Below, one piece after another: positions 8,064 through 23,006 of a stretch of DNA of 23,006 nucleotides; the stretch's first letter is position 1; every line of letters starts with the position of its first letter. Source of the DNA: a virus; IMG/VR virus record IMGVR_UViG_3300025626_000141, positions 1 through 23,006 of that record. The stretch is one strand, 5' to 3'. The notes under the pieces are model-generated. The model searched no databases and had not been told where the DNA came from. It saw nothing but the letters and a program-made list of their open reading frames with translations. Position numbers and translations under genes: made by a program.

Positions 8064-8538
8064 TAAGGAGTGTATCAGCTGCTCAGTACCTTTAACGCAA
8101 GACAACTGGTATGAGTCCTTTGTAGCTAAGAAGCATTACAAATGTAAGACATGTTATGACATACGCAGAGTAGAGAATAGGATTAAGAGAGGGGAAAGGT
8201 CTCCCAGCCTGTTGGCTAAACTGTTCGGCTGGAAGACACAGGAAGTGTACAATCAAGTCAAGGAAGGGTATGTATATGTAATGACTAACCCGGCGTGGCC
8301 TGAGTGGGTCAAGGTAGGGATGGCGGTAGACTCAGAGGATAGGCTTAAGAGTTATCAAACATCCTCACCGTTCAGAGATTACATCTTGGTTTATTCCTAC
8401 GAGGTAGATGACAGGAGAGCGGCGGAGGCAGCAGCACACGTAAGACTAGCAAAGGAATGTGACAACATCAACGAGTGGTTCAGGTTGCCACCTCCGATAG
8501 CAAACGAACTAATACTGGAAGTGATACATGAGTACTAA
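7912..8538 (+). CDS. Zinc-finger GIY-YIG / T5orf172-type protein, start overlapping polymerase gene
   Basis: Up to 208 residues. A Cys4 zinc motif (C54, C57, C78, C81) is followed by a basic stretch. A GIY-YIG-superfamily segment of the T5orf172 type follows at about 119-182 (GYVYVMTN, VKVGMA, DRLKSYQTSSP, AEAAAHVRL). This family includes DNA-binding proteins and nucleases, some of them free-standing homing endonucleases. The start is unsettled. In-frame ATG 7912 (AGGGA upstream) lies inside polymerase motif C. GTG 7975 and TTG 7978 follow, and no canonical start exists between 7981 and the zinc finger. So at least 86 bp overlap the polymerase in another frame. The stop overlaps the next gene by 11 bp. 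Confidence 0.72.
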   Translation: MKSRQKSDRRSQRFSEDWQQAVLKLRASTTNSTALSPEITKSEPVGQIPTDKECISCSVPLTQDNWYESFVAKKHYKCKTCYDIRRVENRIKRGERSPSLLAKLFGWKTQEVYNQVKEGYVYVMTNPAWPEWVKVGMAVDSEDRLKSYQTSSPFRDYILVYSYEVDDRRAAEAAAHVRLAKECDNINEWFRLPPPIANELILEVIHEY

Positions 8539-9415
8539 TAAAACAACGAACAATGTAGTAGCGGACATTTACGCACTGATGGAAAGCAAGGATGCTGACC
8601 CCTCTGTAGATGTAGAAGCAGAGATAGAGAAGTTCGGAGAAGGTGTCAAGGCACTGATGCGTACTGAGTTTGGTCGGAAGAAGCGAGAGGATAACCGGAG
8701 GCTTCGCCTCAGTAATATCGGCCGCACCGACAAGTATCTCTGGAATCACTTTAACGGTACAGAAGGTGAAGAGCTGCAGCCACACACCTACATCAAGTTT
8801 ATGTACGGTCATTTGATTGAAGAGATGTTGCTGTTCCTGACCCGCATGGCTGGACACACAGTAACTGACGAACAGAAGGTATGTAATGTTGAAGGAATTG
8901 TGGGTCACATGGACTGCAAGATTGACGGTGTTGTTACTGATGTCAAGTCAGCAAGCAGCTTTGGGTTCAAGAAGTTTAAGGATGGTACACTGGCATACGA
9001 CGATCCCTTTGGTTATATTGATCAGATCAAAGCCTACGCACACTCAGAGGGACAGACAGAGTTTGGATGGCTTGCAATGGACAAGGCCAACGGACACCTG
9101 ACCTACCTCAAGTATGACTTGAATGACACAGAGGCTCCTGTTTACGAGGTATTGAAGGGCGACATAGTTGACAGGGTGAAGCATGTAAAAAAGCTAGTAG
9201 AGCAGCCAGAGCCAGCGGAGTGGTGTTACCCACCCGTACCGGACGGCAAATCAGGAAACTCAAAGCTATCTATTGGCTGCTCTTACTGTCAATTCAAAGA
9301 CCACTGCTATCCAAACTTACGGGTCTTCGCTTACTCCTACGGGCCAAAGTATTTAGTAGACGTAGTAAAGGAACCCAAGGTACAGGAGGTAATGCCAGAT
9401 GAAGAGGGCTTTTAG
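8528..9415 (+). CDS. PD-(D/E)XK exonuclease, Cas4/RecB-like with probable Fe-S cluster
   Basis: 295 residues. Nuclease motifs are H95 with E98/E99 (YGHLIEE), D129 (GHMD), D138-x-K140 (TDVKSAS) and Q166 in YIDQIKAYA, the usual order of a RecB-type PD-(D/E)XK core. A C-terminal set of cysteines (C233, C251, C254, C260) resembles the Fe-S site of Cas4/AddB nucleases, although in Cas4 one ligand normally lies N-terminal to the core. Likely an exonuclease for recombination or for degrading host DNA into nucleotides. It sits directly before endonuclease I and overlaps it by 17 bp. Not a CRISPR locus: no array or other cas gene is present. Confidence 0.82.
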   Translation: MSTNKTTNNVVADIYALMESKDADPSVDVEAEIEKFGEGVKALMRTEFGRKKREDNRRLRLSNIGRTDKYLWNHFNGTEGEELQPHTYIKFMYGHLIEEMLLFLTRMAGHTVTDEQKVCNVEGIVGHMDCKIDGVVTDVKSASSFGFKKFKDGTLAYDDPFGYIDQIKAYAHSEGQTEFGWLAMDKANGHLTYLKYDLNDTEAPVYEVLKGDIVDRVKHVKKLVEQPEPAEWCYPPVPDGKSGNSKLSIGCSYCQFKDHCYPNLRVFAYSYGPKYLVDVVKEPKVQEVMPDEEGF

Positions 9416-9770
9416 GTCAGGACTTGAGAAGGATTTATCAGAGAAGCTAGATGGACATTACAAGTTTGAACCGTATGGCATACCGTACACAGTACACAAG
9501 AAGTATCTACCGGACTTCGTACACGAGGACAAGGCAATACTGATAGAGTGTAAAGGGTTCTTCAGGGTAGGTGACACACAGAAGTACACAGCCATTAGAG
9601 ATTCAATGCCTGAGTGGGAGTTAATCTTTGTGTTGTCAAACCCTAACAAGAAGGTACGTAAAGGTGGCAAGATAACTATGGGAGAGTGGTGTGAGAAGGA
9701 AGGGTTCCAGCACTACACTGTAGAGACAGCCAAGGAGATGACACGGTACATCAAAAGGAAGAAAGTCTAA
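9399..9770 (+). CDS. Endonuclease I, Holliday-junction resolvase (T7 gp3-like)
   Basis: 123 residues. It resolves branched DNA before packaging and helps degrade host DNA. Catalytic residues line up with T7 gp3 (E20, D55, E65, K67): E10 in FRSGLEKDL, D39 in YLPDF, E50 and K52 in LIECKG. The later segment (GEWCEKEGF, 96-104) also matches the T7 protein's GEFCEKHG. Length is slightly below T7 gp3 (149). AGGAGGT lies 8 nt before the ATG, inside the upstream nuclease gene. The stop overlaps the next start (TAATG). Confidence 0.94.
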   Translation: MKRAFRSGLEKDLSEKLDGHYKFEPYGIPYTVHKKYLPDFVHEDKAILIECKGFFRVGDTQKYTAIRDSMPEWELIFVLSNPNKKVRKGGKITMGEWCEKEGFQHYTVETAKEMTRYIKRKKV

Positions 9771-9940
9771 TGGCCTTGACATTGGAGGAACTTAAAGAAA
9801 AGATTGTAATGTTCTGTGACGAAGAGATGATATGTGAGTTGTTAAACATTACCACGACAGACTTAGTAGAAGCATTTGAACATAGACTAATTAGAAACTT
9901 TGACAGAATAACAGAGGACTTTGATGATGAGACTCAATGA
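9770..9940 (+). CDS. Small conserved phage hypothetical protein
   Basis: 56 residues, beginning MALTLEELKE. The ATG overlaps the endonuclease stop, with AAGGA upstream. The protein is acidic and helical. The pattern LEELKEKI, ICELLNIT.TDLVEAFE is reminiscent of small proteins next to replication genes in other marine podoviruses (from memory). Function unknown. It overlaps the DUF3310 gene start. Confidence 0.68.
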   Translation: MALTLEELKEKIVMFCDEEMICELLNITTTDLVEAFEHRLIRNFDRITEDFDDETQ

Positions 9941-10292
9941 CGCAACACCAGCACAGTGGGATGCCCTGAGAAAGCAAGCACCTGCTATTGAGAAAAAGAC
10001 AGGACTAGAGGCATGGATGAAGGCAGCACACGATGAAGATGCAGACCTCTGGGAAGACGAGGAAGAAGAAGACATGGTAGGTGCGCCTAAGCACTACAAC
10101 TCAGGGAATATAGAGTGTATTGATGCAATAGAGGAATCCATGTCCAGTGTTGCATTCAAAGGCTACCTCAAGGGTAACTGCCTGAAGTATCTGTGGCGCT
10201 ATGACTACAAAGGCAAGCAGGTAGAAGACTTACAGAAAGCTGGTTGGTACTTACGAAAGCTAACAGCAATGGTAACAGAGGAGAATAGCTGA
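9924..10292 (+). CDS. DUF3310 family protein
   Basis: 122 residues from ATG 9924 (ATG 9927 is equally possible; GAGG is 6 and 9 nt upstream respectively). After an acidic linker (about 38-51), the segment from APKHYNSG through LKGNCLKYLWRY to LQKAGWYLRKL is the DUF3310 domain. Databases sometimes call it a nucleotide kinase, without good support. It lies beside the RNR gene, consistent with a role around nucleotide metabolism, but the activity is unproven. Confidence 0.82.
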   Translation: MMRLNDATPAQWDALRKQAPAIEKKTGLEAWMKAAHDEDADLWEDEEEEDMVGAPKHYNSGNIECIDAIEESMSSVAFKGYLKGNCLKYLWRYDYKGKQVEDLQKAGWYLRKLTAMVTEENS

Positions 10293-10477
10293 TGGACAGA
10301 CAACCTAGATTTGAGCTGATACACTATCCAGAGTTCGGAGAAGTAGAGAGGATATGTCCAGCAGTCAAGATAGTCTATACGATATATAACGATGGGTTAA
10401 CATTATCTGACATGAGAGAGCAGTTTGATTACTTCTTAAGAGCATGCTCCTACCACATACCACCAAATGAGGAATAA
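10292..10477 (+). CDS. Hypothetical small protein
   Basis: 61 residues, no membrane segment or known domain. The ATG overlaps the previous stop and has GAGGAG upstream. It is followed 2 nt later by the RNR gene, so it is part of the same transcript. The first half looks beta-rich, with aromatic residues; the segment around 36-52 looks helical. No function assigned. Confidence 0.66.
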   Translation: MDRQPRFELIHYPEFGEVERICPAVKIVYTIYNDGLTLSDMREQFDYFLRACSYHIPPNEE

Positions 10478-10479
10478 TA

Positions 10480-12360
10480 ATGGATCAGTACCAACAGTTT
10501 ATACACAAGAGCCGCTACGCACGATGGCTACCTGAGCAGAAGCGCAGAGAGCGTTGGGACGAGACAGTCAACCGTTACGTAGACTTCTGGAAAGACCGTG
10601 GACAGATAGACGAGACAGTAGCTTTAAAAATGTTTAACGCCATTCACAGCATGGAAGTCATGCCTAGCATGCGCTGTATGATGACAGCAGGTGAAGCTCT
10701 AGACAAAGACAACGTAGCTGGATTTAATTGTAGTTACTTAGCCATTGACTCACCACGTAGCTTTGACGAGTTGATGTACGTGTTGATGTGCGGTACAGGC
10801 GTAGGCTTCAGCGTAGAGCGTAACTTCATTACCAAGCTGCCAGTAGTTGCGGAGACCTTCCATAAGACTGACAGTGTTATTGTTGTTAGTGATAGCAAGA
10901 TAGGCTGGGCCTCTGCATTCCGTGAGCTGATAGCTATGCTGTATGCTGGTAAGATACCTGAGTGGGACATGAGCAGGGTACGACCAGCAGGGGCTAGACT
11001 GAAGACCTTTGGCGGACGTGCAAGCGGACATGAACCACTGCTAGACCTGTTCAACTTCTGTGTAGAGATATTCCAGAAGGCCGCAGGACGTAAGCTCACG
11101 AGCATTGAGTGCCACGATGTAGTGTGTAAGATAGCGGACATTGTAGTGGTCGGTGGTGTGCGTAGATCAGCCCTAATCAGCCTCTCTAACCTGTCTGACC
11201 CACGTATGGCGAAGGCTAAGTCAGGAGACTGGTGGAGGCATGAGGGCCACCGTAGGCTTGCTAACAACAGCGTAGCGTACACTGAGAAGCCAGACTTTGA
11301 ATCCTTCTTAGGCGAGATGCAGAACATGTACGAGAGTAAGGCAGGAGAGCGTGGTATCTTTAGCCGTGTAGCAGCTCAGAAGATTGCAGCACGTAACGGT
11401 AGGCGTGACCCTGATCAGGACTTTGGTACTAACCCATGCTCTGAGATTATCCTGCGTAGCAACCAGTTCTGTAACCTGTCAGAGATTGTAGTACGTCCTG
11501 ATGACACACTGGCTAGTCTCAAGAAGAAGGCAGAGATGGCTGCTATCATTGGCACACTACAGGCTACCTTGACAGACTTTCGTTACCTGCGTAACTGCTG
11601 GAAGAAGAACACTGAGGAAGAAGCACTACTGGGTGTCAGCATGACAGGCATTATGGATCACTACCTGTTGAGTAAGGGAGAGTCTAAGGACTTAGGCAAG
11701 TGGTTGGAGGAAGTACGAGATGTTGCTTTGGATACGAATAAGGAGTGGGCTGCGAAGCTTGGCATTAACCAGTCTGCGGCTATTACATGCGTCAAGCCTA
11801 GCGGTACTGTATCTCAGCTTGTCGATAGTGCTAGTGGTATCCATCCTCGCTTCTCTAAGCATTACATTCGCAGAGTACGTAGCGACCACAAAGACCCGCT
11901 TGCAGTCTTCATGGCACAGTCAGGATTCCCTGTAGAGCAGGATGTGATGTCACCTACGTCCTCAGTCTTTAGCTTCCCTGTGAAGGCTCCAGAGTCCTCT
12001 GTGACGGTTAAGCAAGTAGGAGCTATGCAGCAGCTAGAGCTTTGGAAGGCTTACCAGAATCACTGGTGCGAACATAAGCCAAGCATCACTGTGTACTATA
12101 CGGATAGTGAGTTCCTGCAAGTAGCACAGTGGATATGGGAGAACTTTGATCTGTGTAGTGGGATTAGTTTGTTGCCATATAGCGATCATGTATATCAACA
12201 AGCTCCTTATGAGGACATTGACGCTGAGAAGTATGATGCGCTAGTAGCGGCAATGCCAGTGGGTGTGAACTGGGAAGACTTAGGTGACTTTGAACAGGAA
12301 GATAACACGACAGGAAGTCAAGAGTTAGCGTGTGTAGGTGGTGCGTGTGAGATAGTTTAG
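10480..12360 (+). CDS. nrdJ: Class II (adenosylcobalamin-dependent) ribonucleotide reductase, monomeric NrdJ
   Basis: 626 residues. It reduces ribonucleoside triphosphates to deoxyribonucleotides using a B12-derived radical, needs no oxygen and has a single chain. Visible residues are the active-site cysteine C84 (GFNCSYL), the radical motif NPCSEI (N318, C320, E322) followed by C331 (QFCNLSE), and the C-terminal redox pair C618 and C623 (ACVGGAC) that re-reduces the active site. The organisation matches the Lactobacillus leichmannii-type monomeric RTPR, somewhat shortened. There is no NrdB-like partner in the window. GAGG precedes the ATG. It is the last early gene, directly before a terminator. 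Confidence 0.94.
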   Translation: MDQYQQFIHKSRYARWLPEQKRRERWDETVNRYVDFWKDRGQIDETVALKMFNAIHSMEVMPSMRCMMTAGEALDKDNVAGFNCSYLAIDSPRSFDELMYVLMCGTGVGFSVERNFITKLPVVAETFHKTDSVIVVSDSKIGWASAFRELIAMLYAGKIPEWDMSRVRPAGARLKTFGGRASGHEPLLDLFNFCVEIFQKAAGRKLTSIECHDVVCKIADIVVVGGVRRSALISLSNLSDPRMAKAKSGDWWRHEGHRRLANNSVAYTEKPDFESFLGEMQNMYESKAGERGIFSRVAAQKIAARNGRRDPDQDFGTNPCSEIILRSNQFCNLSEIVVRPDDTLASLKKKAEMAAIIGTLQATLTDFRYLRNCWKKNTEEEALLGVSMTGIMDHYLLSKGESKDLGKWLEEVRDVALDTNKEWAAKLGINQSAAITCVKPSGTVSQLVDSASGIHPRFSKHYIRRVRSDHKDPLAVFMAQSGFPVEQDVMSPTSSVFSFPVKAPESSVTVKQVGAMQQLELWKAYQNHWCEHKPSITVYYTDSEFLQVAQWIWENFDLCSGISLLPYSDHVYQQAPYEDIDAEKYDALVAAMPVGVNWEDLGDFEQEDNTTGSQELACVGGACEIV

Positions 12361-12370
12361 ATAAAACTTA

Positions 12371-12394
12371 GGGGCCGCAATGGCCCCTTTTTTT
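12371..12394 (+). terminator. Rho-independent terminator closing the early operon
   Basis: GGGGCC (12371-12376), a 5-nt loop and GGCCCC (12382-12387) are followed by seven T. It ends early transcription between the convergent early and late operons. The T-run touches the stop codon of the last late gene. Read leftward, the same stem is followed by CTAAGTTTTAT, a weaker tract, so it may act in both directions. Confidence 0.92.
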
Positions 12395-14123
12395 ATTCTT
12401 CTGAATCAGCAGTAGCTGCTAAGAGACCAGCCCCTGTTAAAGGATCAGCCCCACGTAACATGCCACCGACTGTAGGTCTAGCGGCTACGTAGTCTTGCAA
12501 CACTTGTTCCATCTCAGGACGGTCTTCTCTTTTAACAGGCTTGTTTTTACTACGAGGAACAACAGGCTTACCTGCTTTTTCTAAGGCTTGTTCTGCCCAC
12601 TTTGTACCCATAAGGTCTAAATGCATTGGGCCTGATATAGCCATAAGCTCACGAGGTAAAGCCTTCTCAAGTATCTTACCGACTATTGGTAGTTTCTCTA
12701 AAAAGTCATGCTTGTCAGACATAAAGCCTATTGCTCTGCCGTTAGGCAACACCTTCATCAGCCCGTTGACACCACCTTCAACAACCGCTGAACCTTTCAG
12801 TCCAGCCTGTACCCAAAGACCGTTTTTCTTGACATCTTCTAAAGAAGAATTTACCTTGAATCCTCCTTCCTTCTCTGAGATGTCTTTGAGTTTACGCCAC
12901 ATCTCTTCAGTTGAAAGTTTACCTTTTTGTTCTGCAATTATTTTTCTTATGTGTTTGTTAGCTGGGTGTTTAAAAGCTAAGTCTTTTAGGTGGTCTCCTG
13001 ACCTGCCTCCGCTTGGCTCTTTGAACACAACTTTCCGCTTAGGGTCGACTGTATTTCCCCATGCTTCATTAATCTTATCATAAGCAGTTGTCAACACAGC
13101 TTTAGGTGTAGATATCTTTTTACCTTCTGGAGTGGTAAACTTAGTAGCCTTTGCTCCCTTTACAAAATTATCTAAAGTGTCAGCAGCGTACCCTTGAACA
13201 TTAGCAAAATCTTCTATCTCTAACAGAGGATTACCTAGCTCCCCTTTTCTGTCAGACTGTTCAATGATGTGTCTGTTATAGACAACCTGTGCAACTGCTT
13301 TGTCCAAGTCTCTATCTGAAGGATTACCCTTGTTCTTAAAGAGTAAATCGTCAACAGCTTTTTGACCTTTACGGCTGATCCCTGTTTCCCTATAGAGCGC
13401 CCTTGAGAAGGGATTAAGGAGACTATCAATAGCAGCAGCAGCGCCTCCCATCCCCCACTTCATAAGTCCTGTAATTTTTTTACCAGCCAGTGCTACATTT
13501 TTATCTGTAGTTTTTTCTCCTTTAAACTTTAAAGCTACTTCGCCTAGAGTTTTTTCTAGTTCCGTAGGGTCAACATCGGGTTTATCATTACCATAGAAGT
13601 TATCAATGTAATTTTTAACACCAGCAGCCCAAGCACCTTTGTTAGCCGCCGCACCTGCTTTAACCAGACCACCACCTACACCTGCTGTTGCTACGTTGAA
13701 CACGTTGGCTAAGTTCTCAGCAGTACGTGGGTTAGCCTCAGAGAAGTCAAGCACTAGCTCTGTCGCTGCTTGAGCAGGAGCTGTTGACATTACTGCTTCA
13801 GTTGCTTTAGCTGCAGCTTCTCCAATACCTAAAGCATCAGGAGTTAAGGCTGCCGCTGCGCCTCCTACTATATCACCTAGCGCGCCAGCTGCTTGACCTA
13901 TACCAGACAACGCTACTTCCCCTATATTAGCGTCAATGATTCTATCTTCTGGAGGTAGCGTAGCATTAAGACGAGCTAATGCTTCGGGAGTTCTAAACTT
14001 TTTAGGTAATTTGTTTACTACATCTCTTCTGTTGGAAACATCTTGCACTGCTTGTTGTCGATCTGATAACCCGCCTAAGAATTGTACAAAGGCATTGCTT
14101 CTTGCTTTCCCATCAACAGCCAT
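12393..14123 (-). CDS. Putative internal virion / ejection protein (last late gene)
   Basis: 576 residues. Ala/Gly-rich stretches (about 68-160 and 215-232) alternate with Lys-rich helical regions. Several stretches are hydrophobic enough to interact with membranes, as expected for proteins ejected into the cell envelope. No catalytic motif seen. The start overlaps the stop of the 1084-residue protein (TAATG), so the two are translationally coupled and probably work together. The call rests on position and composition; the alternative is a lineage-specific structural protein. Confidence 0.55.
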   Translation of the reverse strand: MAVDGKARSNAFVQFLGGLSDRQQAVQDVSNRRDVVNKLPKKFRTPEALARLNATLPPEDRIIDANIGEVALSGIGQAAGALGDIVGGAAAALTPDALGIGEAAAKATEAVMSTAPAQAATELVLDFSEANPRTAENLANVFNVATAGVGGGLVKAGAAANKGAWAAGVKNYIDNFYGNDKPDVDPTELEKTLGEVALKFKGEKTTDKNVALAGKKITGLMKWGMGGAAAAIDSLLNPFSRALYRETGISRKGQKAVDDLLFKNKGNPSDRDLDKAVAQVVYNRHIIEQSDRKGELGNPLLEIEDFANVQGYAADTLDNFVKGAKATKFTTPEGKKISTPKAVLTTAYDKINEAWGNTVDPKRKVVFKEPSGGRSGDHLKDLAFKHPANKHIRKIIAEQKGKLSTEEMWRKLKDISEKEGGFKVNSSLEDVKKNGLWVQAGLKGSAVVEGGVNGLMKVLPNGRAIGFMSDKHDFLEKLPIVGKILEKALPRELMAISGPMHLDLMGTKWAEQALEKAGKPVVPRSKNKPVKREDRPEMEQVLQDYVAARPTVGGMLRGADPLTGAGLLAATADSEE

Positions 14124-17100
14124 TAGTCTTCTCTCCTACGATCACTACGTCTTTTCTCTTGACGCTCGTTGTAGTTTTCAGCACCACCACCAACCCAGCT
14201 ATACAGTAAAGAACCAACTAACGGCACACCTTTAAGTACGGGGGCAAAGTCAGGTTCATCTTCACCTATCTCTAATGCACCAGTAAGGGCCGCTTCAATG
14301 ACAGGGGTAGCAGGAGTTAAGTAGTCAACAGTACCTTCTATAATTTTACCTTGAGACAGGTATCTATCCCAAGTATACTCTGACATACCGAAGCCTCCAA
14401 TCAAAGCCCATAATGCTTTGTCAGGTATATCGTCAGCATATACTTCCCTACCTAGCATAAGGTCTTTAACTGCCTGAGTACCCATGTTAGCAGTGCTTAA
14501 GTATCCTGCTAAAAGACCTGCCTGTTTAACAGCGTCTAACTTGTTACCTTTCTTCCACTCACCTATGACTCTGTTACGTACCAGATCAAGCTGCTTAAGA
14601 GTAAAAGATTTAAGCATGTACAGTAGTCTACCATTTTTGCTGTTTAAGTATTTCTCAGGTAGCTCACTAAGGGATATAGGCTGTACGTCTGACAGTTCAT
14701 TAAAAGCAAAGAACTTTACGTTTTCTGTTATTTCTCCTGCTTTTAAGTCAGCAATCAAAGACTCTGTTTCATCTCCGTATAACTTACCTATCTTCTGTCT
14801 AAACTTAGCTTCACCTTTAGGACTCTTAACCATCTGCTGCGCCTTCTTAAATGCAGAGTTAATCAGGGTTTCTTTACCTAGTTTATCTGTGAACTTAAAG
14901 AGAGCCACGCCCATAATTTTATTCAAGGCTTTAGCTGTTGCTCTTGGAGAACCCTGAGAAAGCTCTTGAGTAATTACATCGTCAAGACCTAAGTCAATAA
15001 TCTTTAAGTTTTTAGTTCCAAACATAGAACCAATAGCATGTCTAAATCCATTTAAAGAAGCAGCAATACCTGCATCAGCTAACTGAGTAACAGCAGATAC
15101 AGGGTTAGCAATAGTACCCATGTACCCTAAGTCTCTAATAGTAGACGCAACACCTGAAGGGCTTTGCTCACCGCCTACAAAACGTGCTGACAATAACTCA
15201 AGCATCTCTTCTTCACGGGCAGGGTCTAAGTCTCCTTCATCCATAGCTCGTTTAACTATTGCGCCAATAGACTGGTCAGTATCAAAGCGTCCTTGATCAT
15301 CTAGTTTAGCAGACTTTGCTCTGCCAAAAAACTTCCGCTTCTCAATGTCACCTACTGAATTACGCAAGTACATAGCAAGTGCTTGTTCAGGATCAGCGTA
15401 CTCATCCATTAAGTCATCTGTTAGTTCAGAAATCTTACGTTGTTTGGCGTAGCTAGGTTTACCACCATCTGTAGTCTGACGGTAACCACGCATTGCCAAA
15501 TCAATGATCTCTGACTTTTCTTGAGTGCTTAAGTTATTTACATTTGTTTTCTTTTTAGCAGCATAAGCCTGTAATTGTTTGGTGATATAACCTTGTTCTT
15601 CCTTACCTAACCTTGCACGTAGCTTGTCATAATCCTTAACTAAACGAGGAAAGTAATTCTCTACTTCTGTAAAGGTATGACCTGCTTGTTTTAAGTCAGC
15701 AGCCGTTTGCTTCAACAACGGTTGAATAACATCTGTAAATTCTCTGTACATAGCAGGAGAAACACCACGCATAATGCTGGTTGCAGCGTCTATATTACCG
15801 TTAGCTAAATGTTTATTCAAGGTACGCTTAACCTGAGAAGGTAAGGCTTTAAGCTCCAACAAAAAAGGTTCTGCTTTCTTAGAGATAGCTGCTGTGTTTA
15901 CATGAGTATCAAACTCAAACTTACGCATTCTAGCTTTAATAGCTTCAGACATGTTACCCATACGAGTAGCGATAGAGCCTAAGTATTTGTCTAAAGTTTT
16001 GCTATAGATACGAGAGGTAGCATGGTCACGAGTAACTGCTGCCTTAATAGCTTCTTGTGCTTTATCAGCAGAGTTAGGCACAGAGATTTTTGCACCAGTA
16101 CGTTGTGACGCAGCGGCAAGAGCATTCGGATTAATACCCGCAGCCACTAAAGCGTCATTAAGACCACCCGTAGTACCACCTCCAGCAACGTGTTGATCTA
16201 CAACAGCCTGTGCTTTTGTTTGTAACTTGCGCGCACCCTTGTCTGCTGATCTATTGCTTAAGACACTGACAGATTTACCAACAGTAGGCGCTATGATAGC
16301 TCCACCTGCTGTCATTAGCCCTGCCTTTTCCCAATCTATTTCTCCTGTAGTAGCTAAGTCTTTAGCTATGCTAGAACCACCACCATAAGCAGCGCCAATA
16401 GCAGCCATTCCTTTTAAAGACTGACCAGCAGGGGCAAGAGTAGTAGGGTCAGCCAACATTGCACCAATGTTTCCTGTTGTTCTAGCTAGAGAGTCTTCAC
16501 TAGGCTCAAAGAATTGACCATAGTCATGCATTAATTCTCTTTCTTTTTTAGCTATAATCATGTCTCTACGTTGATCTGGTGTAGCAGCCATATAGCCTTC
16601 ACCATAAAGCTGATCAGGAGAGGAGTAGCTAGCCATGTTTAACGGTAGTGCCACTATATCAGCAAAACTATTAACATTAAAGTCAAAAGAAAGTTCGCCA
16701 ATAGGAATGTTAGCTTCAAGGAAATCACCTACGTCAGCTAAGAAACCTTGTTCTTCAGAGAAGCCATACTTAAACTGCCGCCAAGCGTTGTCTACATTAG
16801 AAGGTATAAGTTCTTTACCTATAACCCTATCGCCAGCTACTGCGCCTAGTTCTTGTAAAGTAGCTGAAGCGTTAATGTCGCTCTGTTTAAGACGTATGCC
16901 AGTATCTATGTTGTCTTTAGGATCAGAAAAAACTCTTATAATCTCGTCACCCACATAGCGGTCTCCAGCTACCACGCCTAAACTTTTAAGAGTGTCTGAG
17001 TTTTGAATATCTTCTAGTGTAAATCTAGTTCCTTCAGGAGCCGAAGGTTCTTCTGTCTTCTCAGCTACAGCATTTCGTTGAGCTTGCGCTTTACTCCTAT

Positions 17101-17377
17101 CTTGTGTAGTAACAGGAACATTCATTTCAACACCTAACAGACCAGCACGTTGTGCCTGTGCTTTTGCTCTCCGCCCTGTAGGTTCAAACTCTAAAGTTAT
17201 AGGGTTGACATCAACATCTCTTTTGGCTTCTACATTATCAATCTGCATAAGCCCTTCAAGATATTCTTTAACTTCAGGGTTATCGCGGCTCGCTGTTATA
17301 GCCGCATGATAATCTTCAGGCCATAAGACGCCATTACCTATAGCATTCTTTACTTTTTCTACAAGAATATTAGCCAA
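14123..17377 (-). CDS. Large internal virion (ejection) protein
   Basis: 1084 residues, the largest protein in the window, in the place of T7 gp15/gp16 after the tail tube genes. It is long and helical, with Gly/Ala-rich stretches near 310-370 and a hydrophobic C-terminal third ending in a very basic tail (RRSDRRRED). No lysozyme or transglycosylase signature recognised. The start is TTG at 17375-17377, with AGGA about 9 nt upstream and no ATG nearby. It may form part of the channel through which DNA crosses the envelope. Inferred from size, position and composition. Confidence 0.65.
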   Translation of the reverse strand: MANILVEKVKNAIGNGVLWPEDYHAAITASRDNPEVKEYLEGLMQIDNVEAKRDVDVNPITLEFEPTGRRAKAQAQRAGLLGVEMNVPVTTQDRSKAQAQRNAVAEKTEEPSAPEGTRFTLEDIQNSDTLKSLGVVAGDRYVGDEIIRVFSDPKDNIDTGIRLKQSDINASATLQELGAVAGDRVIGKELIPSNVDNAWRQFKYGFSEEQGFLADVGDFLEANIPIGELSFDFNVNSFADIVALPLNMASYSSPDQLYGEGYMAATPDQRRDMIIAKKERELMHDYGQFFEPSEDSLARTTGNIGAMLADPTTLAPAGQSLKGMAAIGAAYGGGSSIAKDLATTGEIDWEKAGLMTAGGAIIAPTVGKSVSVLSNRSADKGARKLQTKAQAVVDQHVAGGGTTGGLNDALVAAGINPNALAAASQRTGAKISVPNSADKAQEAIKAAVTRDHATSRIYSKTLDKYLGSIATRMGNMSEAIKARMRKFEFDTHVNTAAISKKAEPFLLELKALPSQVKRTLNKHLANGNIDAATSIMRGVSPAMYREFTDVIQPLLKQTAADLKQAGHTFTEVENYFPRLVKDYDKLRARLGKEEQGYITKQLQAYAAKKKTNVNNLSTQEKSEIIDLAMRGYRQTTDGGKPSYAKQRKISELTDDLMDEYADPEQALAMYLRNSVGDIEKRKFFGRAKSAKLDDQGRFDTDQSIGAIVKRAMDEGDLDPAREEEMLELLSARFVGGEQSPSGVASTIRDLGYMGTIANPVSAVTQLADAGIAASLNGFRHAIGSMFGTKNLKIIDLGLDDVITQELSQGSPRATAKALNKIMGVALFKFTDKLGKETLINSAFKKAQQMVKSPKGEAKFRQKIGKLYGDETESLIADLKAGEITENVKFFAFNELSDVQPISLSELPEKYLNSKNGRLLYMLKSFTLKQLDLVRNRVIGEWKKGNKLDAVKQAGLLAGYLSTANMGTQAVKDLMLGREVYADDIPDKALWALIGGFGMSEYTWDRYLSQGKIIEGTVDYLTPATPVIEAALTGALEIGEDEPDFAPVLKGVPLVGSLLYSWVGGGAENYNERQEKRRSDRRRED

Positions 17378-17382
17378 AGTTA

Positions 17383-18141
17383 TTAATCCTTTTTATCCTT
17401 CATGTATGAAAAACTATCCCCCTGTGGGACATCAGGAATTTCTTGTGCTTGCGGTGTGCCACCTACGGGCGCTAAACCCATTGCTTGTCTTAATGCAGCT
17501 TCTCTTCCTATTGCTGGATTGTTATCATAGATACGTTCAGCAATAATATACAGTTTATCTTTAGCATCTTGATCAATATTAGTACCCCACCACTTTCCTT
17601 CAACACGACCGCCAGATGTCATCTGCTCTTTTTCTGAAAAACCTTTCCAATACAAATCGTAGTCTTCTCTGTCTTGCTTAGTAACAGTAGAAGACTTAGC
17701 AACAGGCTGTCGGCCTAACAACACAGAACTTCCAGTAGCTAAAGAACCTCCAGATAGCAAAAAGTCTACCATTTCGTCATTACCTTGTGACCTAGCAATA
17801 CGTATTAAAGAATCTCTTGTGTCTTTTTCTTGACCTAACTGTTGTAAAGCAGCAGCAGTCTTAGCAGCACCAGCCAAGTCACCAGTAGCCTGTTGTATAC
17901 CCGCTAGTTTACGTAAGTCCTCTGGCTTGCTTAAGTCTAAACTAGCCATAGCCATCTGTAGTTTCTCAGAAGTAGTACGAGGGTCTTGACCCATTAGCCC
18001 ACGAACACCACGCTGAAGACCTTGTGCGCGTTCTGCGCCAAAAGCTAACCGTTGTTGTGATGCGTTACCGCCCATTCCCATAGGATCAGGACGACTGCTG
18101 GGCATACCCGTAAGGAGTCCTGCAATATCTGTTCTAGCCAT
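17383..18141 (-). CDS. Putative internal virion / structural protein
   Basis: 252 residues. The N-terminus is rich in Gly, Met and Arg. A helical Ala/Gln/Leu-rich middle (about 55-110) and an acidic C-terminus follow. No known domain. GAGG lies 9 nt before the ATG. It stands between two larger presumptive internal virion proteins with gaps of only 3-5 nt, so a virion role is likely. Position is similar to the small core protein T7 gp14, but I see no sequence support for homology. Confidence 0.55.
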   Translation of the reverse strand: MARTDIAGLLTGMPSSRPDPMGMGGNASQQRLAFGAERAQGLQRGVRGLMGQDPRTTSEKLQMAMASLDLSKPEDLRKLAGIQQATGDLAGAAKTAAALQQLGQEKDTRDSLIRIARSQGNDEMVDFLLSGGSLATGSSVLLGRQPVAKSSTVTKQDREDYDLYWKGFSEKEQMTSGGRVEGKWWGTNIDQDAKDKLYIIAERIYDNNPAIGREAALRQAMGLAPVGGTPQAQEIPDVPQGDSFSYMKDKKD

Positions 18142-18144
18142 AAT

Positions 18145-19152
18145 TTAAAACCTCAACCAAGATGGTAAATTTCCTTCTAACCACTCAAGACCGCCGCTTA
18201 ACAGACCGCCTTCGTTTGTTAAAAGACCGCCGTCAGGATTAAGTATTTTATTAAGTATTTGTTCCTGTATTGTAGCTTGTTGACCAAACAAAGAACCGAG
18301 GATTGCTTCGCCCTGCTGTAGCTGTAAACGATTAGCTAAGTCTTCAGCTTGCAGTCTTGCTTCCAAACCACCTAGTCCCATCTGTGTAGATAACTCAGTA
18401 CCAGTCCTACGCCCAACATCAGCAAAGCCAGCAGGTACTTGACTAGCTGTTAACATAGACAAGGCTTGTTGCTGTGGTTGATAGCCTGCTGCCTGTAACA
18501 TGCCACCCAACTGACCAGCCTGAAGCATCTCTGCTTGTGATTGCTGACGCGCACCTAAGTTAGCGCGAGCCATAGCTTCCTGACGAGCAGTCTCTTGTGC
18601 CAGTAGCTCAGGAGAAGAACCGCCATAAGCAGCAGAACCTAACCCTAAGCGCCCTTGTGACAGCATACGCTCTTCTAGTGCTAGTCGTTGACGTTCCTCT
18701 TCAGGACGCTGTATGGCTCTCATTTGTTCGTATAGCTGCGCTTGTGCTGCGGCAGGGTCTGCACCTACTTGACCAAACAAACCACCTGCTTGCTGCTGTA
18801 GCTGCGCCTGTAGGGCTTGTTGCTCTGGTGACAGGTCTATAGCAAACCCACCAGTAGGGTCTGTAGCAATGTTAGCTAGGCCACTAGTAACAGTATAAGG
18901 CTTAAACTCTGCACCTGCTCTGGCTTCTTGAGCTAACGCTTGTGCGCCTGCTTGAGCCTCACGACCTAGCTGTTGTGCGCCTCTAATGTTTTCTTGACCT
19001 AAGTAATACTGACCGCCTGTACGCAGTAAGCCACCTAAGTCAAAACCAGAACCACCTGCTGTTGCTGTGGGCGTGATAGAAAGATTCCCGCTAGGGTCTA
19101 TAGTAGGAGTAGCTGTATCAGCTACATAGTTTCCTTGTGCATCGTAAGGCAT
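18145..19152 (-). CDS. Gln/Ala-rich putative internal virion protein
   Basis: 335 residues with strong Gln, Ala, Gly and Leu bias. The N-terminal 30 residues are Thr/Pro-rich. The middle (about 55-240) is predicted long helix or coiled coil (for example EERQRLALEERML). The C-terminus is hydrophobic and ends LPSWLRF. Composition and position are typical of podovirus core/ejection proteins. The start overlaps the fibre-like gene's stop (TAATG). No enzymatic motif. Confidence 0.58.
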   Translation of the reverse strand: MPYDAQGNYVADTATPTIDPSGNLSITPTATAGGSGFDLGGLLRTGGQYYLGQENIRGAQQLGREAQAGAQALAQEARAGAEFKPYTVTSGLANIATDPTGGFAIDLSPEQQALQAQLQQQAGGLFGQVGADPAAAQAQLYEQMRAIQRPEEERQRLALEERMLSQGRLGLGSAAYGGSSPELLAQETARQEAMARANLGARQQSQAEMLQAGQLGGMLQAAGYQPQQQALSMLTASQVPAGFADVGRRTGTELSTQMGLGGLEARLQAEDLANRLQLQQGEAILGSLFGQQATIQEQILNKILNPDGGLLTNEGGLLSGGLEWLEGNLPSWLRF

Positions 19153-19385
19153 TAGTAAGACCCTCCAGTAATTGTGTCAGCCGTCAGTGTGCCTGTGACG
19201 TTTACGGTAGCGGCTGTAACAGTACCAGTAAATGTAGGACTAGCTGTGTCTGCTTTAGTAGCACTCGCTATCTGTATGTTGTTAAACTCAGTGTCGATCT
19301 CTGTACCTTTAACAATCTTAGCTGGATTGCCCGAAGGGAGAGAGTCCTTGGTTGCAAAGTTGGTTGTCTTAGTATAATTAGACAT
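19152..19385 (-). CDS. Short fibre-like structural protein
   Basis: 77 residues. The N-terminal part (NFATKDSLPSGNP, KIVKGTEIDTEFNNI) and the segment TKADTASPTFTGTVTAATV are recurring elements in phage fibre and spike proteins, where they form an attachment segment followed by a beta repeat. Here the protein stops right after the repeat without a receptor-binding domain. It may be a minor decoration, a virion anchor for another fibre, or the remnant of a longer fibre. GGGAGA precedes the ATG; it is adjacent to the tail tubular B gene. Confidence 0.68.
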   Translation of the reverse strand: MSNYTKTTNFATKDSLPSGNPAKIVKGTEIDTEFNNIQIASATKADTASPTFTGTVTAATVNVTGTLTADTITGGSY

Positions 19386-20918
19386 TTAGATAAGTCTCCC
19401 TAATAGAGCGTGTATGTCGATTTTTTGAATAGAAAAAGCAGCATCGTTAATCTCGGCTTCAAGGCCAATAGTCACTACCTCACCACTGCCGCTGGTGTTA
19501 ACCCTTGGTGTGTTGATAAGAATAGAAGAGGTGTACTCGCCTGTAGTGTTATACTCAGTAACACCATACTCAGCAATACTGCTAGAGCCGAAGGTAAAGA
19601 CCTGCTTAGTGTATGAAGATGTGTAGTCATAACCCCAGTTAAGTGTAGTAGGTGTGTTCTGACCACCAATGATAGTCAAGTTAAACTTCTTCAGGAACTT
19701 TAGATTAGATGTGTTGCCAAAGTCCATAGGATTACTAAAGTAACGCATCTCGTACTTTACAGTTCCGTCTAAGTAACCTTCGTACTTAACAATGCCTGAA
19801 GAGATGCCTATGTATATATCACCACCTTCTAGTACAGCAAAGGATAGAGGGTACAAACCAGACCATGTAGTAGCTCTGTGTGACCCATCCTCTAGCTGCC
19901 TACGCATGTCAAAGCAGTAGACAATATTGCTGTCAGGTAGTGTTAACAGGTAGAAGGCTTCTTCAGAGCTGTACAGTGACTTGATAGCATTAGTCTGTAA
20001 AGGGATCAAAGACACCAAATCAGTGCGTACATTCTTGCTGATGTCACGCATAGGCATGGACTTCTCTTGCACAGTCCTGCCAAAGCTACGTACACCTGTC
20101 TCGGACAAGAACAATATATCAGTACCTGTATGTTGTACTGAGTCACGAGCTATGCAACCAACGCCTTCTATGGTGTCTGTAAGCGTCATAGAGGCAGGAG
20201 AGGAGGCTCCTGAGTACACGAGTATAGACTTCTTACCAAAGATGATTAGGAAGCCATTGTGGGCCGCTAGAGCCGTTATCTCGTCAAAGCCTGTAGGCCA
20301 TACAGTAGTAACGTCTAACGAGCCTGACGTACCGCCTGTCCAATGATGACCATTTAGTAGATCAGACCAGTAGACAGTGTGCTTGTTACCTGTAATGTCT
20401 GCTGCCCAGAGACGACCGTATGCTGCTAAGACTTCATTAGCCTCTGGTGGTGTGCCTGTTGCGTGAGTATGTGCTGAATGTTCTTCCAGTACAAACGAAC
20501 CACCATGGTCTGTACCTAGCACGTACTCGTGGTCTCTTTGGAATAAGTAGACATGGTCGTTTAAAGTAACAGCTTTCCAGTTATTAGCTGTAGGCGTGTA
20601 CCCAGCAGGAGTAGCGTCTGTTAACGTGGTAGTGCCTGTAAAGATTTTATTGTTACCTGCTGACAGTATAACCTTATCACCAGAGTTATCAATAAACTCG
20701 TACACAGTCTCTATACCACGGCTACTGCCTAATACAGCAGCGCCATTAGTAGAAACCTCTACCCAGCCCTTACGCGCACCAATACGGCCTAGCTGATCAA
20801 TAACACAGTTGTCTGCAACAGAAGCAAACGAAGGATCAATCCCTATGGGGGAGTCCTGTGTGTTTAGACCAGCAAAGCCGGGGGCGGCTACTGTTATGTT
20901 CTGTAGTTGTTGTGCCAT
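19386..20918 (-). CDS. Tail tubular protein B / tail nozzle (T7 gp12-like or P22 gp10-like)
   Basis: 510 residues, strongly beta-rich with repeated aromatic-glycine strands, suggesting a propeller-like fold. The N-terminus contains PGFAGLNTQDSPIGIDPS and GRIGARKGW, a signature I associate with podovirus tail nozzle/stabilisation proteins. It directly follows the tail tubular A gene (TAATG overlap), the usual T7 order gp11-gp12. It is shorter than T7 gp12 (794) and close to P22 gp10 (472). It would close the tail tube below the adaptor. Family assignment is moderately firm. Confidence 0.72.
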   Translation of the reverse strand: MAQQLQNITVAAPGFAGLNTQDSPIGIDPSFASVADNCVIDQLGRIGARKGWVEVSTNGAAVLGSSRGIETVYEFIDNSGDKVILSAGNNKIFTGTTTLTDATPAGYTPTANNWKAVTLNDHVYLFQRDHEYVLGTDHGGSFVLEEHSAHTHATGTPPEANEVLAAYGRLWAADITGNKHTVYWSDLLNGHHWTGGTSGSLDVTTVWPTGFDEITALAAHNGFLIIFGKKSILVYSGASSPASMTLTDTIEGVGCIARDSVQHTGTDILFLSETGVRSFGRTVQEKSMPMRDISKNVRTDLVSLIPLQTNAIKSLYSSEEAFYLLTLPDSNIVYCFDMRRQLEDGSHRATTWSGLYPLSFAVLEGGDIYIGISSGIVKYEGYLDGTVKYEMRYFSNPMDFGNTSNLKFLKKFNLTIIGGQNTPTTLNWGYDYTSSYTKQVFTFGSSSIAEYGVTEYNTTGEYTSSILINTPRVNTSGSGEVVTIGLEAEINDAAFSIQKIDIHALLGRLI

Positions 20919-21562
20919 TAAGAATACCAGATAGTTTCTTCAGGATGTTGTGACGCATCAATAGCAATAGCATCAGACAATGTTCTGTCAGCCAGAGCAA
21001 ACAACTCTGCTGCGCTTGTGCCACCAGTCTCTCCACGCTCTCTAGCACCCAGTGCTGTAGCTACCTGAACAACAGGTGATGAAGGTACTGCTAGAGTCTC
21101 TGTATCTTCTGTGAAGTCTGCTGTACGTAGCACCACGTTAAATCGTAGCTGATACACACCGTCAGGCTTAGGATACACATCGACAGCATTGTCACCAGCA
21201 GCATTAACACCGTTGAAGCTGTAGAACTGTGGAGAGCCTAGAGGCGGTGTCTCAATCAAGAAAGCGTTGTCCATCCAGCGAGAAGGACGGTACTGCATGA
21301 AGAAGTCTGAAGTGTCGTTAATAACGTCCAACAGCTTCATCCTGTTCTGTGAACCAGTCAACACATAGTTAAAGGTTGTATCGTCTGTGGTTACAGTTAG
21401 TGTAGTACGCAGAGCAGTCCAGTCGTAGGAGTCTTCTACGGTACGTTTAGCATCGTTGACAAACTCTCCAATAAGTTTGGAGTAGCTGTTTTGAGAAACT
21501 GTAGATACTTCGTCCTCTCTAAGTCTACGCAATACGCTGTTGACTAATTGTAAGTATGTCAT
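20918..21562 (-). CDS. Tail tubular protein A / head-tail adaptor (T7 gp11-like)
   Basis: 214 residues, close to T7 gp11 (196). The N-terminal helices (LVNSVLRRLRED, GEFVNDAKRTVEDSYDW) and later beta segments match the gp11/P22 gp4 type that binds below the portal and forms the upper tail ring. The C-terminal helix carries ALGARERG. Immediate coupling to the nozzle gene supports the call. The start is 2 nt after the stop of the mosaic protein. Confidence 0.8.
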   Translation of the reverse strand: MTYLQLVNSVLRRLREDEVSTVSQNSYSKLIGEFVNDAKRTVEDSYDWTALRTTLTVTTDDTTFNYVLTGSQNRMKLLDVINDTSDFFMQYRPSRWMDNAFLIETPPLGSPQFYSFNGVNAAGDNAVDVYPKPDGVYQLRFNVVLRTADFTEDTETLAVPSSPVVQVATALGARERGETGGTSAAELFALADRTLSDAIAIDASQHPEETIWYS

Positions 21563-21564
21563 TA

Positions 21565-23006
21565 TTATCTATACCCTTGTAGTAAAGTGCTATTAGTCAG
21601 CATGCCCGGAGGTCTAGTGCGTAACTGTGGTACTTGTTGTAAAGTTTGTTGTATTGAAGGCACAGGAACAAAAGTAAAAGGATTAAGAAGTTCTTGTGTA
21701 GCTCCTATTTGTGTTTCTAGTTGTAACAAATCACCAAAGAGAGAGTCCGTAGTGCGTGTAGCTGCTTGTCCTCTAATACCCTGAACACCTTGTTGACCTT
21801 GTTGACCTTGCTCTCCTTGCTCTCCTTGCTCTCCTTGCTCTCCTTGCTCTCCTTGCTCTCCTTGCTCTCCATCAGTGCCATCAGTTCCATCAGTGCCGTC
21901 AATACCGTCTACACCGTCTATGCCATCTATGCCATCAATACCGTCTACACCAGCTACACCGTCTATGCCGTCTATGCCGTCTATGCCATCAATACCATCA
22001 ATACCATTTATGCCGTCTACCGGAGTAGGCGTCGGCTCTACCGGAGTAGGCGTAGGTTCTACCGGAGGCTGTACCGGAGGCTGTACCGGAGGCTGTACCG
22101 GAGGCTGTACCGGAGGCTGTACCGGAGGCTGTACCGGAGGCTGTACCGGAGGCTGTACCGGAGGCTCTACTGGTGGCTCTACAAGAGTAGGCGTAGGCTC
22201 TACAGGAGGCTCTACTGGAGGTTGAGGCTCGAAAGGAGGAATATAAATAGGAGGTGTTTCTTCTTCTTCTAAAGATTTTTTTTCGTATTCATCCATCTCT
22301 TCAGCAGTAACAATGCCATCATTATTAACGTCTAAAGTATTAAAATCAGCGTCTAACCATGTATCACCAAAAACATCTTCAAAAGAAGTAGGATCGTATT
22401 CAAAACTTTCTCCTTCTGCTGGTATTACTGGAGGAGCTACAGGCTCTGGAGCAGGTGCTGGCGTAGGTGCTGGAGCAGGCTCAGGAGCAGGTGCTGGAGT
22501 AGTGTCTGTAGTAGTGTCTGTAGTAGTGTCTGTAGTAGTGTCTGTAGTATCTACAGTACCAGCAACTGTTTCTACAGGTCTTGTATCAACTGTATTGGCT
22601 GCGGCAGCGGCGGCATCTGCTGCAGCTCTAGCGGCATCATCAGAGTCAGTGTCTTCTGATGTGATTTCTTCAGTAGGTAGTTTTACGTCTACTTCTATAG
22701 GGTCAGCAGTAATATCTACGTCTTCAAACTCAGCATCTACGTCTTCCTCTACTGTACTAGTGTCTGGGGTAACGCCTGTAACATCTACTACTTCACCTGT
22801 AACGCGGTCAGTAACGTTTGTTTCAAAGTCTCTTTCTGCTTCTATAGCTGCTATGACTGCTGCTAAATCATCGTCATCGTCTTCTTCTTCAGCTATACCT
22901 CCAAGACCTGCACCAGCTCCAACAATATCTACAGGAACACCACCAAAACTTAAACCAGCTTCTGTTACTCCGCCAGTAATAGGGGAACCACTTGACGCTG
23001 TGAAAC
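21565..23006 (-). CDS. Mosaic virion protein: EF-hand, Pro-rich repeats and collagen-like domain; 5' end beyond right edge
   Basis: The minus-strand frame is open from the window edge to a TAA at 21565-21567, giving 479 residues with no stop, so the Met at 22294-22296 is internal. Order: Gly/Val-rich start, acidic segment, Ala-rich stretch, four TDTT repeats, Pro-Ala/Glu linker, an EF-hand loop DVNNDGIVTAEE with flanking helices, PPVE then eight PPVQ repeats, a collagen-like Gly-X-Y tract (GID/GVD/GTD, then seven GEQ) and a C-terminal domain of about 65 residues. No transmembrane segment. The gene lies between missing upstream late genes and tail tubular A, so a virion fibre or appendage is likely. 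Function inferred only. Confidence 0.85.
   Translation of the reverse strand, partial: FTASSGSPITGGVTEAGLSFGGVPVDIVGAGAGLGGIAEEEDDDDDLAAVIAAIEAERDFETNVTDRVTGEVVDVTGVTPDTSTVEEDVDAEFEDVDITADPIEVDVKLPTEEITSEDTDSDDAARAAADAAAAAANTVDTRPVETVAGTVDTTDTTTDTTTDTTTDTTPAPAPEPAPAPTPAPAPEPVAPPVIPAEGESFEYDPTSFEDVFGDTWLDADFNTLDVNNDGIVTAEEMDEYEKKSLEEEETPPIYIPPFEPQPPVEPPVEPTPTLVEPPVEPPVQPPVQPPVQPPVQPPVQPPVQPPVQPPVQPPVEPTPTPVEPTPTPVDGINGIDGIDGIDGIDGIDGVAGVDGIDGIDGIDGVDGIDGTDGTDGTDGEQGEQGEQGEQGEQGEQGEQGQQGQQGVQGIRGQAATRTTDSLFGDLLQLETQIGATQELLNPFTFVPVPSIQQTLQQVPQLRTRPPGMLTNSTLLQGYR
21808..21870 (-). repeat. 9-bp tandem repeat x7 (Gly-Glu-Gln)
   Basis: Seven perfect copies of TTGCTCTCC (plus strand), encoding GEQ triplets of the collagen-like domain. 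Variant copies flank it (GQQ on one side, GTD on the other). Perfect identity points to recent expansion or active slippage. Confidence 0.9.
21871..22020 (-). repeat. Imperfect 9-bp repeats encoding Gly-(Ile/Val/Thr)-Asp
   Basis: About sixteen degenerate 9-bp units encode GID, GVD, GTD, and one each GIN and GVA. Together with the GEQ tract they make a Gly-X-Y run of over 25 triplets, typical of phage collagen-like stalks. Degeneracy suggests this part is older than the GEQ tract. Confidence 0.82.
22061..22156 (-). repeat. 12-bp tandem repeat x8 (Pro-Pro-Val-Gln)
   Basis: Eight perfect copies of ACCGGAGGCTGT (plus strand), with a ninth variant at 22157-22168. They encode PPVQ units, probably a stiff polyproline-type rod. 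Perfect copies are expected to vary in number between isolates, always in frame. Confidence 0.92.
22297..22332 (-). other. EF-hand calcium-binding loop within the mosaic protein
   Basis: The 12-residue loop DVNNDGIVTAEE has D1, N3, D5, G6 and E12 at the canonical calcium-ligand positions and a hydrophobic residue (V) at position 8. It is flanked by WLDADFNTL before and MDEYEKK after, as for the E and F helices. Only one loop is visible; dockerin-like or paired EF-hands normally have two. Confidence 0.75.
22499..22546 (-). repeat. 12-bp tandem repeat x4 (Thr-Asp-Thr-Thr)
   Basis: Four perfect copies of GTAGTGTCTGTA (plus strand) in the upstream part of the mosaic gene, adjoining a Pro-Ala/Glu linker. 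A third independent in-frame minisatellite in the same gene. Confidence 0.85.

Follow-up and report, generated by a model that had tools for sequence, protein, structure and literature searches.

EPclA and EPclB are collagen-like prophage proteins of E. coli O157:H7, and EPclA illustrates that a trimeric stalk joining globular ends can be built from collagen as well as from helical segments (PMC3368898). Collagen repeats have also been reported among the putative receptor-binding proteins of pelagimyophages, in a paper whose accessible text describes no slot of the kind analyzed below (PMC7029224).

The window analyzed in this study is the entire 23,006-nt IMG/VR virus record IMGVR_UViG_3300025626_000141, which comes from a marine, podovirus-like virus of bacteria. 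One end of it carries an incomplete gene for a protein with a collagen-like stalk. The name X is used for the protein family of this open reading frame, which represents the C-terminal part of its protein, and the other loci are identified by L numbers. Elsewhere the window encodes a terminase fragment, an M15 peptidase, a DnaB-type helicase with Toprim, a family A DNA polymerase, a phage endonuclease I, and a ribonucleotide reductase. The DNA polymerase shares 52% identity with its counterpart in Pelagibacter phage HTVC103P, and the ribonucleotide reductase (10480–12360) has a class II (B12-dependent) insertion domain. A short array at 1927–1967 holds two exact copies of the 9-mer TTATCCACA, the DnaA-box consensus, within 41 bp and could be an origin region; the total number of these 9-mers across the window is not above chance.

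The capsid of one relative is 34% identical to Saffermanviridae cyanophage capsids. In the Saffermanviridae A-4L and Pf-WMP3, there is no annotated gene between the capsid and the next tail protein. Only two of the loci fell in metagenome bins, labeled Sphingobacteriales and Euryarchaeota; these labels were not trusted as host assignments.

A modular reading frame beside the adaptor and nozzle genes

The frame of the window X is unbroken from position 23004 to the stop codon at 21565–21567 on the minus strand. The gene (21565–23004; 479 aa plus stop) is cut by the contig edge, so that the N terminus is missing and the protein is incomplete. From the N-terminal side, the chain runs through an acidic segment (residues 38–61; 22822–22893), an Ala/Asp-rich stretch that is a putative helix by its pattern (residues 122–136; 22597–22641), a TDTT tandem array (22494–22549) for which Tandem Repeats Finder (TRF) gave a 12-bp unit, 4.7 copies, and 97% matches, and a Pro/Ala linker (residues 169–190; 22435–22500, with a TRF array at 22446–22499). 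It continues with a canonical EF-hand loop, DVNNDGIVTAEE (residues 225–236; 22297–22332), and a rod of PPVE/PPVQ and PTP repeats delimited by sequence reading and TRF (22018–22233), within which lies a PPVQ array (22060–22182; 12-bp unit, 10.2 copies, 97% matches). The collagen-like Gly-X-Y stalk follows (residues 331–414; 21763–22014), underlain by 9-bp TRF arrays, and then a C-terminal segment of 65 residues (residues 415–479). This last segment contains, 3 residues past the collagen run, the C-terminal anchor motif TTDSLFGDLLQLETQIG (residues 418–434; 21703–21753). All of these features are on the minus strand.

The stalk consists of 28 uninterrupted Gly-X-Y triplets, compared with a maximum of 5 over 2000 residue shuffles, and scores 54.2 bits with the Pfam family Collagen (PF01391), twice the cut-off of 27.2. 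EF-hand loops have ligands at positions 1, 3, 5, 9, and 12 and a glycine at position 6, and DVNNDGIVTAEE fits this 12-residue pattern. Such a loop arises in 57 of 20,000 shuffles of the window protein; the EF-hand_5 score of 15.2 bits is below the Pfam gathering cut-off of 25.9. The segments that the first-pass annotation had read in one frame are all present in a single, unbroken chain, and shuffling puts the Gly-X-Y run and the EF-hand loop beyond chance. A mosaic of this kind could nevertheless be an assembly or sequencing artifact, given that repeats are hard to assemble and that the contig ends inside the gene. This is exceedingly improbable, as 479 codons are open, each of the modules is seen again in contigs assembled independently, and the frame is kept by all 197 repeat-array rows in X genes.

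Downstream on the same strand are a 214-aa adaptor of the tail tubular protein A type (20918–21562; PF24175 SU10_adaptor, 46.5 bits, cut-off 27) and a 510-aa nozzle/stabilization-type tail protein (19386–20918; phrog_3287, phrog_578 head closure, and phrog_5107). The adaptor matches Tail tubular protein A (9k09_d) weakly (E = 0.0033) and nothing among 50,697 phage records, and the nozzle has weak matches only, in three phage records. The gene had been described as lying next to the tail tube genes; tail genes do adjoin it, but they are those of an adaptor and a nozzle/stabilization-type protein. With real modules beside these two genes, X is very likely a structural protein, judging from sequence and gene position. 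The nozzle gene is followed by a 77-aa gene (MSNYTKTT...; 19152–19385), the first residues of which are the same in 12 close relatives listed; a 77-aa ORF is found directly past the nozzle in six distant-clade loci as well.

Sampling, slot, and constant ends of family X

IMG/VR was scanned with the adaptor and with the nozzle, and the best 80 of about 600 candidate stretches were kept for each. Among 135 loci with an adaptor match, 17 were dropped (reversed, adaptor start absent, or too little upstream sequence), leaving 118 with a readable upstream ORF; 82 of these ORFs were complete and 66 distinct. The 66 complete proteins (529–1072 aa) and the window X form the working set of 67, whose members are related, so that counts overstate independence. 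A family HMM built from the 66 complete proteins matched directly upstream of the adaptor in every locus that had 300 nt or more of upstream sequence (116/116). Both ends of the protein are constant. An N-domain HMM matched 64 of the 66 full-length proteins, L002 and L003 being without the domain, and an HMM of the C-terminal anchor matched 67 of 67, including four sequences not used in building it; the anchor HMM was derived from 41 distinct stretches of the family sequences themselves.

Residues 1–112 of the window X are 55–64% identical to L004, L005, L018, L033, and L038, and residues 1–110 align with residues 290–420 of L004 at 64% identity, so the missing N terminus probably resembles that of L004. 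The C-terminal part is 98% identical to L002, in which the N-domain is absent. The simplest reading of this chimeric relationship is recombination within the X gene. Several smaller modules were noted in the family: a motif of the form DDR...W...G.W.V.I....Y/Q.I.W between rods (L002, L003, L025, L033, and L135), an RMGG.FVDEL-type module in 17 of the 67 proteins, and a tandem module of about 38 residues (SDYIRML.DFQ.EGG.VGANATRLL) at the N termini of L025 and L094, ahead of the part common to other members. With the patterns used in the window and L140–L145, no motif of X was found in other proteins encoded by these phages.

The more complete gene order of L140 reads, along the strand, terminase, portal, scaffold-position gene, capsid (PF19821), S74 tail fiber, smaller genes, holin, X, adaptor, and nozzle; the terminase was called by similarity to that of the window, the portal by tblastn to annotated portals (21–27% identity), and the scaffold by position only. 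This order bears on whether X is the receptor-binding tail fiber itself. Collagen-like repeats are known in antireceptors with variable regions (PMC5601072), and adaptor and nozzle form the fiber dock in a T7-like phage (PMC10575957). However, L140 has a separate 1196-aa tail fiber with a Peptidase_S74 chaperone domain (8014–11604) and a smaller fiber-like gene before the holin, so receptor binding does not have to be the task of X. The ends of X are moreover conserved rather than variable, and domain searches recognized no receptor-binding domain in it. We regard this identity of X as improbable.

In the two relatives read for this feature, L096 and L140, the start of X overlaps the stop of a GTA_holin_3TM-type holin gene (PF11351 for L140). 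This overlap would suit a late non-virion protein, such as one that works with the neighboring holin, or a decoy that is released. Against such a role, no strongly hydrophobic segment was seen in nine members examined (best 19-residue mean 1.07–1.58), the modules are of the phage-fiber type, and the slot adjoins the adaptor and nozzle genes. A non-virion role is accordingly rated highly improbable.

Spacer classes and the EF-hand loop

The two ends of X are separated by a spacer that, by simple patterns, belongs to one of several classes: 11-residue helical repeats in 32 of the 67 proteins, Gly-X dipeptides in 22, collagen triplets in 10, and none of these in three. Two classes were never found in one protein (0/67), in a count where the 11-mer test skipped Gly/Pro-rich windows and so favored apparent exclusivity. 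Under random placement this exclusivity has a probability below 1e-8, a value to be taken as a guide only, the sequences being related and the 11-mer test biased. The collagen run ends 3–4 residues before the anchor in 7 of the 10 collagen-type proteins, the window included; the exceptions are L025, with a gap of 38 residues, and L029 and L034, with 157 each. In all 22 Gly-X members the run ends 9–27 residues before the anchor. The 11-residue repeats are amphipathic, with a hydrophobic period of 3.54–3.78 in 12 members and of 3.6–3.7 in eight of these, where 11/3 would give 3.67. Arrays with a period of 33 bp or a multiple of it underlie nine X genes, among them the collagen-type L033. A match to the Collagen family was obtained in 4 of 10 relative records searched, always inside X.

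The EF-hand loop occurs in 12 of the 67 proteins (the window and 11 others), as against a mean of 0.175 after shuffling. Collagen and EF-hand were found together in the window X only, which bears out the earlier impression of an unusual combination; each module recurs elsewhere in the family. On these sequence comparisons, the family reshuffles such modules, and the window's exact combination is one outcome of that reshuffling.

The protein had also been proposed to be a calcium-sensitive attachment appendage. Support for this does not go beyond the conserved loop: its presence in only 12 of 67 members means that calcium cannot be essential to the function of the family, and the S74 fiber of L140 weakens the attachment part of the proposal. 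Seawater contains about 10 mM calcium. An exposed EF-hand site would therefore be permanently loaded and would work as a clamp on the structure, not as a sensor. A sensor role is unlikely because most members are without the loop, and a calcium clamp formed by the putative EF-hand is possible.

Divergence of X between close relatives

A full holin gene lay upstream of X in 51 of the 66 loci, which gave 1275 pairs for comparison. In 286 of these pairs the adaptors were at least 95% and the holins at least 85% identical. The medians in this subset were 94.5% for the holin, 98.1% for the adaptor, and, for X, 28.4% counted over the longer protein (38.4% over aligned positions). TRF returned 197 array rows in 52 of the 66 X genes (overlapping rows counted), and all 197 periods were divisible by 3. 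Several nearly identical pairs differ by whole units: one 11-mer in L126/L136, 12 aa in L115/L117, 27 plus 54 aa of GID units in L041/L094, and a single PKTTVA in L075/L080. Over 28 X pairs, 30 of 120 gaps touched tandem arrays, which make up about 4% of the proteins; the other 90 did not, and unit slippage is therefore only one route by which X changes.

X was considered as a uniquely hypervariable gene, and this was ruled out. Between close relatives, the medians for nozzle, adaptor, and holin exceed 93%; the genes that follow the nozzle are as variable as X, with best-match medians of 29, 18, and 28%. In the window, the genes following the nozzle (12393–19152) encode proteins of 335, 252, 1084, and 576 aa and are replaced from one close relative to another about as readily as X. 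The variability of X alone thus does not point to a position on the outside of the particle. Corrected for the nozzle, X similarity correlates weakly with that of the third post-nozzle gene (partial Mantel r = 0.24, 0 of 2000 permutations, 34 loci).

The main rival explanation is that X is a virion protein of the internal or ejected kind, which would be stored in the head or in the lumen of the tail and leave together with the DNA. The amphipathic 11-residue helices would then contact the membrane, and the extended versions would thread the channel. In T7-like phages, the genes after the nozzle encode the ejection proteins, and X both varies like the genes in that position and weakly tracks the third of them. 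The 11-residue helices, with a period of 3.6–3.7 in 8 of 12 members, resemble lipid-binding repeats. On the other hand, an exterior setting that contains calcium is what collagen triple helices and EF-hands would suit, and X lies upstream of the adaptor, outside the post-nozzle block. In addition, the phage collagens treated in PMC3368898 and PMC6750898 are fiber-type or spike proteins. An ejected X is in our judgment unlikely, while deserving to be kept in view.

The slot in more distant clades

The distant set consisted of 30 loci, namely L151, 25 new loci (L154–L178), and four of the 80 loci obtained in a scan for a 50%-identical nozzle. Six gave no start for the adaptor; L168 showed nothing ahead of the adaptor but a short, unrelated ORF and so lacks X there; the other 23 each carried a slot gene. 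Collagen runs of at least 8 triplets were present in 6 of the 23 slot genes (L161, L162, L167, L176, L207, and L208). In L158, L159, and L174 the slot protein has tandem Cys-containing repeats of about 25 residues (C..GT.L.GQ...DGNCNP) and Asn/Gln runs that replace collagen. Homology of the anchor across these clades was suspected from a resemblance by eye but found no statistical support, the hhalign probability being 2–6%. With hmmsearch, no E value below 0.7 was obtained for the anchor in one direction, and the best in the other direction (0.17) was to other ORFs. From these sequences, the slot and the general plan of X would appear to be either old or convergent.

Homologue searches and structure prediction

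The X of L140 (2345–4012; 556 aa), a helical protein without any collagen, had no Pfam or PHROG match and no match in cultured phages, and the same negative result in cultured phages was obtained for the 1022-aa slot protein of L175. For the collagen-type proteins scanned, the Pfam and PHROG matches (best 25 PHROG rows per protein) rest almost wholly on the collagen stretch. No internal virion protein family was among the best 25 PHROG rows of each X protein scanned; the X of L126 gave weak tape-measure matches, which fall on its helical repeats. A profile search of the PDB with the 32 helical proteins found only designed or repeat helical proteins, the best being a circular tendon repeat protein (E = 8.6e-05).

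AlphaFold modeled a whole helical X poorly (pLDDT 54), and a fold search with this model gave no E value of 0.001 or below in BFVD and no Z score of 8 or above in the PDB. The N-domain alone was modeled better, with block pLDDT values mostly of 77–93 over residues 1–130 and a dip near 60 at residues 41–60, and is predicted to be an alpha+beta domain. Its fold searches gave no clear match (best E 2.9 in the PDB and 0.21 in BFVD; in VIA, best Z 3.5 with an rmsd of 3.9 over 79 residues). The modeled N-domain thus has no recognized fold, which does not prove that its fold is new.

A proposed C-anchored stalk with an exchangeable spacer

The reading we adopt, at about even confidence, is that X is a virion stalk anchored at its C terminus, with a spacer that is replaced as a whole and changes in length by repeat units. 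X would be attached to the particle near the adaptor-nozzle region through its conserved anchor peptide, and the conserved alpha+beta N-domain would sit at the far end, held off from the anchor by the exchangeable spacer. Because both ends are conserved, the choice of the C terminus as the attached end is a guess. In the window X the spacer would be a string of small parts, such as the EF-hand and the PPV rod, followed by a collagen triple helix, presumably of three chains, abutting the anchor; close relatives would have a helix of 11-residue repeats or a Gly-X chain there instead. The EF-hand would most likely act as a clamp on a local fold as soon as the particle enters calcium-rich seawater. 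Slippage or recombination would lengthen or shorten the repeats by whole units, and since these changes come in multiples of three bases, reach and stiffness could change without breakage of the gene. The selective reason for the exchange may be the host surface or spacing.

More broadly, and with more doubt than confidence, we propose that marine podovirus-like phages have a slot in which attachment peptide and head domain stay constant and the stalk is swapped between wholly different folding classes, namely collagen triple helix, 11-residue helical rod, and flexible Gly-X chain, and adjusted in length by repeat units, so that the spacer, and not a receptor-binding tip, evolves. If X is a virion stalk, the family is a natural experiment in which rod length, stiffness, and folding class vary with the ends unchanged, and it would allow one to ask whether phages adapt by reach rather than by binding specificity. 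For protein design, it also provides test material in the form of numerous natural rods, of both the collagen and the 11-residue-repeat kind, whose ends are matched. The reshuffling family is of more interest than the one-off module combination of the window.

Comparison with known systems

As far as the literature was searched, including work on phage collagen, hypervariable low-complexity virion proteins, and EF-hand tail fibers, no description of an X-like stalk exchange was found, nor any work combining EF-hand, phage, collagen-like, and virion; to that extent, the family and its spacer exchange are not in print. Nothing like X was found in the accessible text on Sulfitobacter phage PhiGT1 (PMC10386132). 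The phage lysin LysGH15 shares a calcium site of the EF-hand type, but it is an enzyme with an unrelated role (PMC4022735).

The spike P5 of tectivirus PR772 resembles the proposed form of X in having a trimeric collagen-like stalk on a virion protein. P5 belongs to another virus group, and its collagen motif is short (residues 124–140), with attachment at the N terminus and a host recognition knob at the C terminus (PMC6750898). The antireceptors of Streptococcus thermophilus phages, for which the data are those of Duplessis and Moineau (2001) as cited in PMC5601072, also have collagen-like repeats between domains, in a host-facing protein with variable regions; there, the variable region VR2 is the purported host range determinant, whereas in X it is the stalk that is exchanged between constant ends. 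In the T7-like phage P-SCSP1u, the fiber is docked between the adaptor and the nozzle, the neighbors of X. Those fibers attach by an N-terminal jelly roll and helix (PMC10575957), whereas the most widely conserved part of X is C-terminal.

A likeness in domain plan is seen with EPclA, which has an N-terminal domain, a helical coiled segment, a collagen stalk, and a C-terminal domain, with globular ends and a semi-flexible stalk (PMC3368898). No shared domain of the EPclA type (PfN or PfC) was detected among the best 25 PHROG rows of each X protein scanned, nearly all of which lie on collagen. The helix of EPclA is a loose heptad repeat, whereas that of X is built of 11-residue repeats, and EPclA joins helical and collagen stalks in one chain (PMC3368898), whereas in X the two are mutually exclusive among relatives.
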